Source: Methylobacterium sp. FF17 (lineage in GTDB: Bacteria > Pseudomonadota > Alphaproteobacteria > Rhizobiales > Beijerinckiaceae). From it: 64,000 nucleotides of DNA. Location of the stretch: contig NZ_CP107532.1 in assembly GCF_025813715.1 (NCBI RefSeq), positions 992,001 through 1,056,000 of the forward strand. Direction: 5' to 3'. Position numbers and translations under genes: made by a program. Numbering within the stretch: the stretch's first letter is position 1; each line of letters opens with the position of its first letter. Positions 32,488 through 33,740 of this stretch are shown here, piece after piece. The notes under the pieces were generated by a model. The model was not told where the DNA came from, did not search any database, and was given only the letters and a program-made list of their open reading frames with translations.

Positions 32488-32606
32488 GTCCAAGCCTCTG
32501 ATGGGTCCAAGCCTTCGATGGGTCCAAGCCTTCGATGGGCTCAAGCCTTCGGTCGGCCCAAGGCAGAAGTCGGCCCAAGCCAGAAGTTGGCCAAGCCCGA
32601 AGCGCG
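32488..32606. repeat. 17-bp tandem repeat array, seven units
   Basis: Units of the form GTCCAAGCCTTCGATGG begin at 32488, 32505, 32522, 32539, 32557, 32574 and 32591. Units 2 and 3 are identical; unit 1 differs slightly; units 4-7 drift toward CCCAAGCCAGAAGTCGG, and unit 4 has one extra base. There are no unique spacers. It lies between the end of a small exported-protein gene and the ROK gene. Confidence 0.85.
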
Positions 32607-32660: not shown

Positions 32661-33740
32661 ATGGCAAGAGAGACTCAGATCCGCGAGGCGGGAATCGCCC
32701 ACGCGGCGCAGCGGCTGCCGTCGGTCAGCATCGACCACTACAACATCGAACTGAAGGACGGCGACGGCTTCATCGGCGACCGGGTCTCGAAGGCGGCCTT
32801 CCGCGAGATGCTGGAAGCGTGCCGTGAACCGCTTCGCGCCCTCGGCCTCGATCCGCTGGGCGACAAGGCGAGCTGCGATTTCACCAAGCGGCGCCTCGAC
32901 CATATCCTGCTGGCCGAGGACCCCCTCGCCTCGGGCACGGTGTGGAGCGCCATCGAGGCGTTCGCGCAGGAACTCGCCCGGGTGGTCCGGGTGTTCTTGC
33001 GCCAGGAGGGCTGGGAGGGAACCCAGGCCATCGCGGTCGGCGGCGGCTTTCGCGACAGCCGCGCCGGCTGCCTCGCGATCGGACGGGCGGGCTACCTGCT
33101 GCGGGCCGAGGGCATCGACATCACCCTCGAGCCGATCCGCCACCATCCCGACGAGGGCGGCCTGGTCGGCGCCGTGCACCTCGCCCCCGCCTGGATCTTT
33201 TCCGGCTACGACAGCCTGCTCGCGGTGGATATCGGCGGCAGCAACATCCGGGCCGGCGTCGTCACGACGAACCTGCGCAAGGCGCCCGACCTCTCGCGCA
33301 GCGCGGTCTGGCGCTCGGAGATCTGGCGCCACCGCGACGAGGATCCCACCCCGAGCCGCGACGAGGCCCTGGAGCGCCTCATCGGCATGCTGAACGACCT
33401 GATCCGCCGCGCGGACCGGGCGAATCTCGCCCTCGCGCCCTTCATCGGGATCGGCTGCCCGGGGCTCATCACGGCCGACGGCACCATCGAGCGCGGCGGC
33501 CAGAACCTGCCCGGCAACTGGGAGGGGCGCGACTTCAACCTCGCCGAGCGCCTGACGGCGGCGATCCCGCGCATCGGCGAGCACGCCACCATGGTGGTGA
33601 TGCACAACGACGCCGTCGTGCAGGGCCTCAGCGAGGTGCCGGACCGCAAGGACGTGACGCGCTGGGGCATCCTCACCATCGGCACCGGCCTCGGCAACGC
33701 GCGCTTCACCAATCGCGAGTCCGACGAAGCGGAGGGCTGA
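32661..33740 (+). CDS. ROK-family kinase-like protein, circularly permuted
   Basis: A 359-aa sugar-kinase-like protein with its halves in the reverse of the usual ROK order. Residues about 90-178 look like the C-terminal half of a ROK kinase: IAVGGGF at 124-130, then RHHPDEGGLVGAVHL, the usual end of the fold. Residues 185-359 follow with the normal N-terminal half: LAVDIGGSNIRAG (187-199), GIGCPG (263-268), catalytic-type Asp317 in MHNDAVV, and ILTIGTGLGN. The zinc motif CxCGxxGC is absent. Start ATG 32661. Substrate unknown; glucokinase-like from the family. Confidence 0.75.
   Translation: MARETQIREAGIAHAAQRLPSVSIDHYNIELKDGDGFIGDRVSKAAFREMLEACREPLRALGLDPLGDKASCDFTKRRLDHILLAEDPLASGTVWSAIEAFAQELARVVRVFLRQEGWEGTQAIAVGGGFRDSRAGCLAIGRAGYLLRAEGIDITLEPIRHHPDEGGLVGAVHLAPAWIFSGYDSLLAVDIGGSNIRAGVVTTNLRKAPDLSRSAVWRSEIWRHRDEDPTPSRDEALERLIGMLNDLIRRADRANLALAPFIGIGCPGLITADGTIERGGQNLPGNWEGRDFNLAERLTAAIPRIGEHATMVVMHNDAVVQGLSEVPDRKDVTRWGILTIGTGLGNARFTNRESDEAEG

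Follow-up and report, generated by a model that had tools for sequence, protein, structure and literature searches.

The gene and its product

The window analyzed here, a stretch of 64,000 nucleotides from the genome of Methylobacterium sp. FF17, contains on its plus strand, to which all feature coordinates refer, an open reading frame (32661..33740; start ATG at 32661, stop codon at 33738-33740) encoding a protein of 359 amino acids. On the basis of the reading frame, its Pfam match, and profile alignment, we assign the whole gene to a putative circularly permuted ROK-family sugar kinase. Compared with that of a Methylobacterium relative (L001), the gene shows 26, 20, and 95 differences at first, second, and third codon positions, respectively, over 359 codons, and this third-position excess indicates that it is a coding gene under protein-level selection. 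Pfam recognizes the ROK domain (PF00480) in residues 187-351 only, corresponding to model positions 2-141 of 294, with 28.3 bits versus a gathering cutoff of 22.9, and no further domain was found in the protein up to an E value of 1.

A sequence-only reading of this DNA had placed DIGGSN at residues 190-195, GIGCPG at residues 263-268, HND at residues 315-317, and GTGLGN at residues 341-346, correctly in each case. In an alignment of 78 permuted proteins (A1), D190, G192, and G193 of the phosphate-1 motif DIGGSN (33228..33245) are invariant (78/78), and the same applies to P267 and G268 of GCPG (residues 265-268; 33453..33464), to HND (33603..33611), which lies opposite the canonical END/AND and contains the putative catalytic Asp317, and to the phosphate-2 motif GTGLGN (33681..33698) near the new C terminus. 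The protein indeed ends soon after the GTGLGN strand, as had been remarked, with 13 residues following. The segment NLPGNWE (residues 282-288; 33504..33524) is opposite the canonical ROK NAN..W segment according to hhalign and A1. The first half of the protein contains GGG (residues 127-129; 33039..33047), invariant in 78/78 sequences, which we take to be the adenosine-side motif from its role in the ROK family, and RHHPDEGGLVGA (residues 160-171), within which DEGGLVGA (residues 164-171; 33150..33173) corresponds to the ROK C-terminal D..G..GAA pattern in hhalign and A1.

The gap immediately preceding the gene contains two 17-bp tandem arrays that abut one another (window positions 32488-32602), the first with 4.4 copies of GTCCAAGCCTTCGATGG and the second with 3.1 copies of GTCGGCCCAAGCCAGAA. 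The exact GTCCAAGCCTTCGATGG unit occurs twice in the host genome, both times within this array, and a near-exact array pattern was absent from the nine Methylobacterium-group relative loci checked.

Evidence for a circular permutation

Profiles of the 78 permuted proteins (A1) and of 36 canonical ROK proteins were compared with hhalign, the canonical set comprising those that passed a motif filter among 42 candidate loci (1, 12, and 29 from three sources). In native order, the score was 93.5 over 138 columns, and the second part of the permuted protein alone aligned to canonical ROK. In rotated order, the score was 145.5 over 288 columns and canonical ROK was covered from end to end; homology over the whole domain was thus obtained only after rotation. 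A scan of 24 rotations had its maximum at rotation 180, with 144.1 versus 93.0 for the unrotated profile. To give a scale for these scores, canonical ROK versus Glk yielded 131.5. Residues 1-183 (N-half; 32661..33209), the predicted equivalent of the ROK C-terminal half, scored 65.0 against the canonical second half and 16.0 against the first half, and aligned to canonical columns 180-310 with a score of 67.1 (E value of 2.6e-9). Conversely, residues 184-359 (C-half; 33210..33737), the predicted equivalent of the ROK N-terminal half and the part matched by PF00480, scored 94.4 against the canonical first half and 17.7 against the second half. Between the aligned halves, residues 177-186 (33189..33218) approximately represent the new linker joining the old C terminus to the old N terminus, the boundary of which we infer from this alignment.

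Since each half aligns to the opposite canonical half, the rotation scan peaks at 180, and controls score low, the window protein is very probably a circular permutation relative to ROK, with the C-terminal half first and the half bearing DxGG, ND, and GTGxG second, as the sequence-only reading had proposed. That the N-half might instead be an unrelated domain, resembling ROK in GGG and GGLVGA by chance, would fit the failure of single-sequence and single-profile HMM searches to detect the ROK relation: a Pfam scan of the N-half alone reported no ROK, its sole match being FGGY_C at an E value of 0.086, and a PDB search with the N-half profile found three weak unrelated matches and no ROK chain. 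The profile-profile score of the N-half, obtained against the right half and in the right direction, is nevertheless far above those of 60 column shuffles (mean of 14.6, SD of 3.0, maximum of 24.0) and above column-reversed controls, which gave E values of 0.05 to 0.3 except for the trivial reversed-versus-reversed pair; hhalign E values refer to single comparisons, and the shuffles are the better yardstick. An unrelated N-half therefore appears largely refuted and is hardly conceivable. The FGGY_C match could also hint that a ROK N-terminal lobe was joined to the C-terminal lobe of a different ASKHA family, which we consider very improbable, given that scores of the N-half profile reach 64-67 with ROK (67.1 with the canonical profile) but 15-28 with the other families (Glk, 15.3; BadF, 27.8; FGGY, 22.6). 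No unrelated fold in the first half was seen at the sequence level, where residues 1-183 match ROK, and an in-frame ROK C-terminal half after GTGxG was found in none of 411 family sequences; these were the two observations that the earlier reading had named as speaking against a reversal.

A quick proof by Pfam was dropped, as the rotated sequence scored 28.6 versus 28.3 bits, no gain. A PDB search with the whole-family profile returned human MNK as the best chain, matched on the C-half with an E value of 9.8e-5, and the C terminus of E. coli NanK (residues 214-286) matched profile positions 94-175 with an E value of 0.31, a hint only. A motif-order regular expression found 18/36 of the canonical set, was too strict, and was not relied on.

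Size and distribution of the family

Three protein searches (E value of ≤0.001), with the window protein (P0001) and two distant members as queries, gave at least 8000, at least 4892, and at least 5829 matches, of which the best 120 of each search were inspected; the remainder may include canonical ROKs. Together with P0001 and 50 locus proteins, these 360 best-listed matches form a pool of 411 sequences, 404 of them distinct. The order GGG, DxGG[ST], GTGxG was detected by regular expression in 410/411 sequences and by eye in the remaining one (P0156, with DIGGKN), so that homologs with the same order, for which the sequence-only reading had suggested a search, account for 411/411 of the sequences inspected and come from alpha-, beta-, and gammaproteobacteria. 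The reversed order is a trait of a large family and not a peculiarity of one protein. DxGG[ST] is preceded by 158-240 residues (median, 191; 410 sequences) and is hence not N-terminal, unlike in the ROK definition, and GTGxG is followed by a tail of at most 121 residues, 13 in the median (411 sequences). The three longest tails (P0346, P0359, and P0356) contain neither GGG nor the zinc motif and consist of 35-41% Lys plus Ala. Long Lys/Ala-rich, histone-like tails occur at the C terminus of P0346, P0356, and P0359 and at the N terminus of P0281 and P0342, with Bordetella among the bearers.

Among the matches listed are alphaproteobacterial (Methylobacterium, Microvirga, Salinarimonas, and Xanthobacteraceae), gammaproteobacterial (Lysobacter, Pseudoxanthomonas, Luteimonas, and Stenotrophomonas), and betaproteobacterial names (Acidovorax, Paracidovorax, Polaromonas, Rhodoferax, and Bordetella). 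The N-half profile was found in 16/299 Pseudomonadota genomes, at 18 near-full-length places, all coinciding with permuted genes found separately, and in one 32-residue fragment. A match in G443 (E value of 5e-4), considered as a distant relative of the N-half, lies in a frame that by eye encodes an NAD(P)/FAD-type oxidoreductase and was set aside as chance. In Hyphomicrobiales, P0001 had matches in 34/249 genomes, of which 31 were near full length, two were pieces only, and one was due to chance; three of the 31 near-full-length copies have one stop marked inside the matched span. Three of six sampled genomes of the genus, the host included, carry the permuted gene. It also matched 206 plasmid records, most from Rhizobium (111) and Sinorhizobium (79); in 204 records the match covered 80% or more of the query. 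Pfam recognized at most half of the protein length in the four family sequences tested.

The open-licence literature searched yielded no account of a circular permutation in ROK or in another actin-fold sugar kinase. In their retrieved passages, PMC2213659 deals with ADP-dependent glucokinase and 2-dehydro-3-deoxygluconokinase, PMC1079889 brings up permutation solely as a general rule in defining fold groups, PMC1976428 has the ROK family among its test data but speaks of permutation in another connection, and in the gene list of PMC7701253 a ROK glucokinase and a permuted ATP-grasp protein are two distinct entries. Judged from the alignments, the ROK family thus includes a conserved circular permutation that is, as far as the literature searched reaches, undescribed.

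Origin of the permuted order

A tree was built from 17 permuted proteins in rotated form, 36 canonical ROKs, and 10 Glk proteins; in it, all permuted proteins fall into one clade with an SH-aLRT value of 100 and a long stem, which supports one origin of the permuted order. The clade joins within ROK at an SH-aLRT value of 81, the program warning of long branches that meet elsewhere in the tree. Glk (PF02685) is an ASKHA relative of ROK; its order is canonical and its sequence relation to the permuted family is much weaker (rotated score, 45.3). As Glk shares the canonical order, parsimony suggests that the permuted order is the derived one. From the phylogeny and the conserved motif order, the permutation is evidently old and conserved.

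A further group comprises short ROKs of canonical order that lack the zinc motif, one encoded in L245 and 13 in L253-L265; those of L253-L265 have about 223-260 amino acids, ND followed by [VMI]Q, and GTGxG. Their first half resembles the permuted C-half with a score of about 91, whereas their second half is unlike the permuted N-half (23.0; E value of 0.017), and they were rejected as the direct parent for this lack of a match. In a second tree, restricted to the first half and with eight of these proteins added, the branch support was 99 for the permuted, 85 for the short, and 94 for the canonical proteins, and the three groups meet in a trichotomy. The mapping of the origin proposed in the sequence-only reading thus led to a single clade of the 17 sampled proteins but not to the parent lineage.

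Circular permutations usually arise when a gene is duplicated in tandem and the product is then trimmed. Most likely, an ancestral canonical ROK gene underwent such a duplication, and each copy would have been shortened at an identical position, which lies between the GTGxG strand and the ExGH/zinc segment. The protein would then begin in what had been its middle, and its former C and N termini would be connected through a short linker. According to the consulted part of a structural study of Fusobacterium nucleatum NanK, the N-terminal domain of this kinase consists of residues 1-118 and 272-291 (PMC5458393), that is, the old ends share one domain and could be joined by a short linker. With C-terminal residues returning to the N-terminal domain in a solved ROK kinase, the permutation is sterically plausible by analogy (PMC5458393, same part).

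Sugar site, zinc motif, and catalysis

Compared with ROK sugar kinases (PF00480), such as E. coli NanK (2aa4), human MNK (2yhy), and F. nucleatum NanK (5nck), the permuted family is homologous over the full length after rotation and shares DxGG[TS], G.PG, the catalytic ND, GTGxG, GGG, and D..GL.GA, but its halves are reversed, its chain begins and ends between the GTGxG strand and the ExGH/zinc segment, and it lacks ExGH and CxCGxxGC. The hallmarks of ROK proteins given in the consulted part of PMC5458393 are DxGxT, the catalytic Asp, ExGH, and CxCGxxGCx(E/D); the permuted family retains DxGxT and the catalytic Asp and is devoid of the other two. In the phosphate-1 motif, Thr is present in 57/78 and Ser in 20/78 of the A1 sequences, the window protein having Ser for Thr in DIGGSN, and DxGG[ST] is found in 410/411 family sequences, with DIGGKN as the exception. 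The zinc-binding motif, which the sequence-only reading had reported as missing, is absent from the window protein, and CxCxxxGC was found in 0/411 family sequences versus 33/36 canonical ones. The sugar-binding motif ExGH was absent from the equivalent place: the regular expression matched 2/411 sequences, at residue 169 of P0328 and residue 11 of P0148, neither match being conserved, versus 36/36 canonical proteins. The new termini fall within the ExGH/zinc segment, and the cut would have removed both motifs. The same part of PMC5458393 notes that some accepted ROK proteins also lack the zinc motif and shows that the zinc site can be lost from a ROK scaffold; the zinc-less F. nucleatum NanK conserves its active-site features and, unlike the permuted proteins, retains ExGH and the canonical order.

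The region near the lost ExGH site is occupied by a conserved new N-terminal segment, residues 14-28 (HAAQRLPSVSIDHYN; 32700..32744), with H14 in 76/78, D25 in 70/78, Y27 in 72/78, and N28 in 74/78 A1 sequences. In the rotation-scan hhalign, its alignment with the canonical ExGH region is weak; H14 falls within one position of the ExGH histidine, and the ExGH match of P0148 lies within this segment, both weak leads. GFIGDRVS (residues 36-43; 32766..32789), which has no cysteines and in which F37, G39, and D40 are invariant (78/78, A1), is opposite the canonical zinc-motif region in hhalign and A1. H14, D25, Y27, N28, F37, G39, and D40 are candidates for replaced sugar contacts, and H14, D25, Y27, N28, and D40, close to the N terminus, probably take over contacts on the sugar side.

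With the phosphate-1, phosphate-2, adenosine, and catalytic-Asp motifs intact and the catalytic motifs invariant in 78/78 A1 sequences, the protein probably phosphorylates a sugar, and we consider an active sugar kinase to be the probable state of this family. That the protein is instead a ROK fold with little or no catalytic activity, serving as a sugar sensor or regulator, might be suspected from the loss of ExGH, from the repressors within the ROK family, and from the lack of a sugar-metabolism partner beside the gene in the window. Against this stand the invariance of the catalytic Asp and phosphate motifs, the single Pfam domain, and the location of the gene within trehalose gene clusters in several genomes, so that this alternative seems unlikely. 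Where the sequence-only reading had left the choice between a stable permuted enzyme and a regulator, the enzyme is therefore favored and the regulator less likely.

Genomic neighborhood

Neighbors were surveyed at 77 loci: the window, L001-L033 (33 of 34 loci, the incomplete L034 being left out), 15 regions, 9 plasmid loci picked by hand for variety from the 206 records, and 19 further regions from the 20 additional Hyphomicrobiales genomes with near-full-length copies (G429 was left out). Genes were called by a codon-position GC score, which is approximate and in GC-rich loci left some calls plainly misframed, and the spread of neighbors was determined by tblastn, for which several of the surveyed loci themselves supplied the queries. 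The neighbors that we take to be otsB, otsA, GH15, pfkB, Ku, PPK2, and DUF892 were presumptively named from their sequences; otsB on plasmids follows the record's own name, and PF02358 was checked for the host only.

An otsB gene lies within about 1.5 kb, center to center, of the permuted gene in 15/77 loci, three of which supplied the query, and was absent from this distance in 62/77. In 8 of these 15 loci, GH15 and otsA are also present within about 5.4 kb, and in three of the 8 (L239, L242, and L245) the genes form codirectional clusters with a PfkB-type kinase. That of L245 (genome G483), spanning offsets -5468 to +1043, has the order GH15, otsA, short canonical ROK, pfkB, otsB, permuted ROK, which places a short zinc-less ROK and a permuted ROK in one trehalose cluster. 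In 6/9 plasmid loci (L110, L111, L112, L115, L117, and L118), otsB is divergent from the permuted gene. On p42c of Rhizobium etli CFN 42, the permuted gene is a neighbor of otsB and is close to repABC. Other stress-type neighbors within about 6 kb were DUF892 in 5, Ku in 3, and PPK2 in 1 of the 77 loci, the query locus counted in each case; L019, L032, L106, L115, and L116 have such neighbors (PPK2, Ku, ferritin-like DUF892, or LigD/Ku).

An EcfG-type box (GGAAC-N15-18-CGTT within 160 nucleotides upstream) precedes the permuted gene in 18/51 non-Methylobacterium alphaproteobacterial loci versus 6/448 other predicted genes there (Fisher P value of 5.9e-15, for loci that are not phylogenetically independent, six of the 18 coming from one genus). 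Neither nearby otsB nor the box was found in any of the 23 Methylobacterium-group loci, the window gene included, or in the 3 beta/gammaproteobacterial loci. EcfG control of the window gene itself was considered but gained no support, no box having been found upstream, and for the Methylobacterium group the link to trehalose and stress is carried over from relatives. Elsewhere in the host genome (L283), otsB (about 4456021-4456737) directly precedes a PF02685 glucokinase (match, 4456877-4457839), which stands where the permuted gene stands in other genomes; the host already possesses this glucokinase and a canonical ROK. From the consulted portions of the respective papers, EcfG governs the synthesis of trehalose in Bradyrhizobium diazoefficiens (PMC8092242), otsBA of Ensifer aridi is termed RpoE2-mediated (PMC8877191), and (p)ppGpp induces otsB in R. 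etli (PMC3188799); the main texts of these three contain no word beginning with ROK.

Substrate and significance

The otsB, otsA, and GH15 neighbors and EcfG-type promoters in other genomes, together with the host glucokinase beside otsB, point tentatively to a glucokinase linked to trehalose and stress, a reading to which we give slightly less than an even chance. Counting against it are the 62/77 loci without nearby otsB, the Methylobacterium-group loci without otsB or box, and the glucokinase and canonical ROK that the host already possesses. Glucose would be the likeliest substrate, and its product, glucose-6-phosphate, may feed the trehalose cycle under stress. A permuted ROK kinase acting on another sugar (N-acetyl- or amino-hexose, fructose, or another stress sugar), or using polyphosphate instead of ATP, seems somewhat unlikely, although sugar specificity may have changed with the loss of the ExGH and zinc motifs and the best NCBIfam match is a polyphosphate-glucose phosphotransferase (21.9 bits versus a cutoff of 250). 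In the Microvirga locus L019, the gene lying divergently beside the permuted gene presumably encodes polyphosphate kinase 2; such a neighbor occurs in 1/77 loci only, and the otsB, otsA, and GH15 neighbors favor glucose.

Taken as a whole, the reading as a stable, natural, permuted ROK-type sugar kinase, probably a trehalose/stress glucokinase, appears likely. The wider proposal, evenly balanced in our judgment, is that one ancient permutation of an ASKHA sugar kinase gave rise to a separate, widespread alpha-, beta-, and gammaproteobacterial family in which, after the cut through the ExGH/zinc segment, the sugar site was rebuilt from a new N terminus. The family would act as a stress-induced trehalose-cycle kinase and, being recognized over half its length only, would be concealed in databases under the name "ROK family protein."

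The present analysis revises how a large family should be read, of which Pfam sees at most half the length (four sequences), and points to an uncharacterized putative kinase that in rhizobia lies next to otsB and downstream of EcfG-type promoters. Should the fold be confirmed, the family would represent a natural experiment on where the ROK fold can be opened, on how a catalytic site persists once its zinc and ExGH elements are lost, and on how the parent enzyme can give way to a permuted one.
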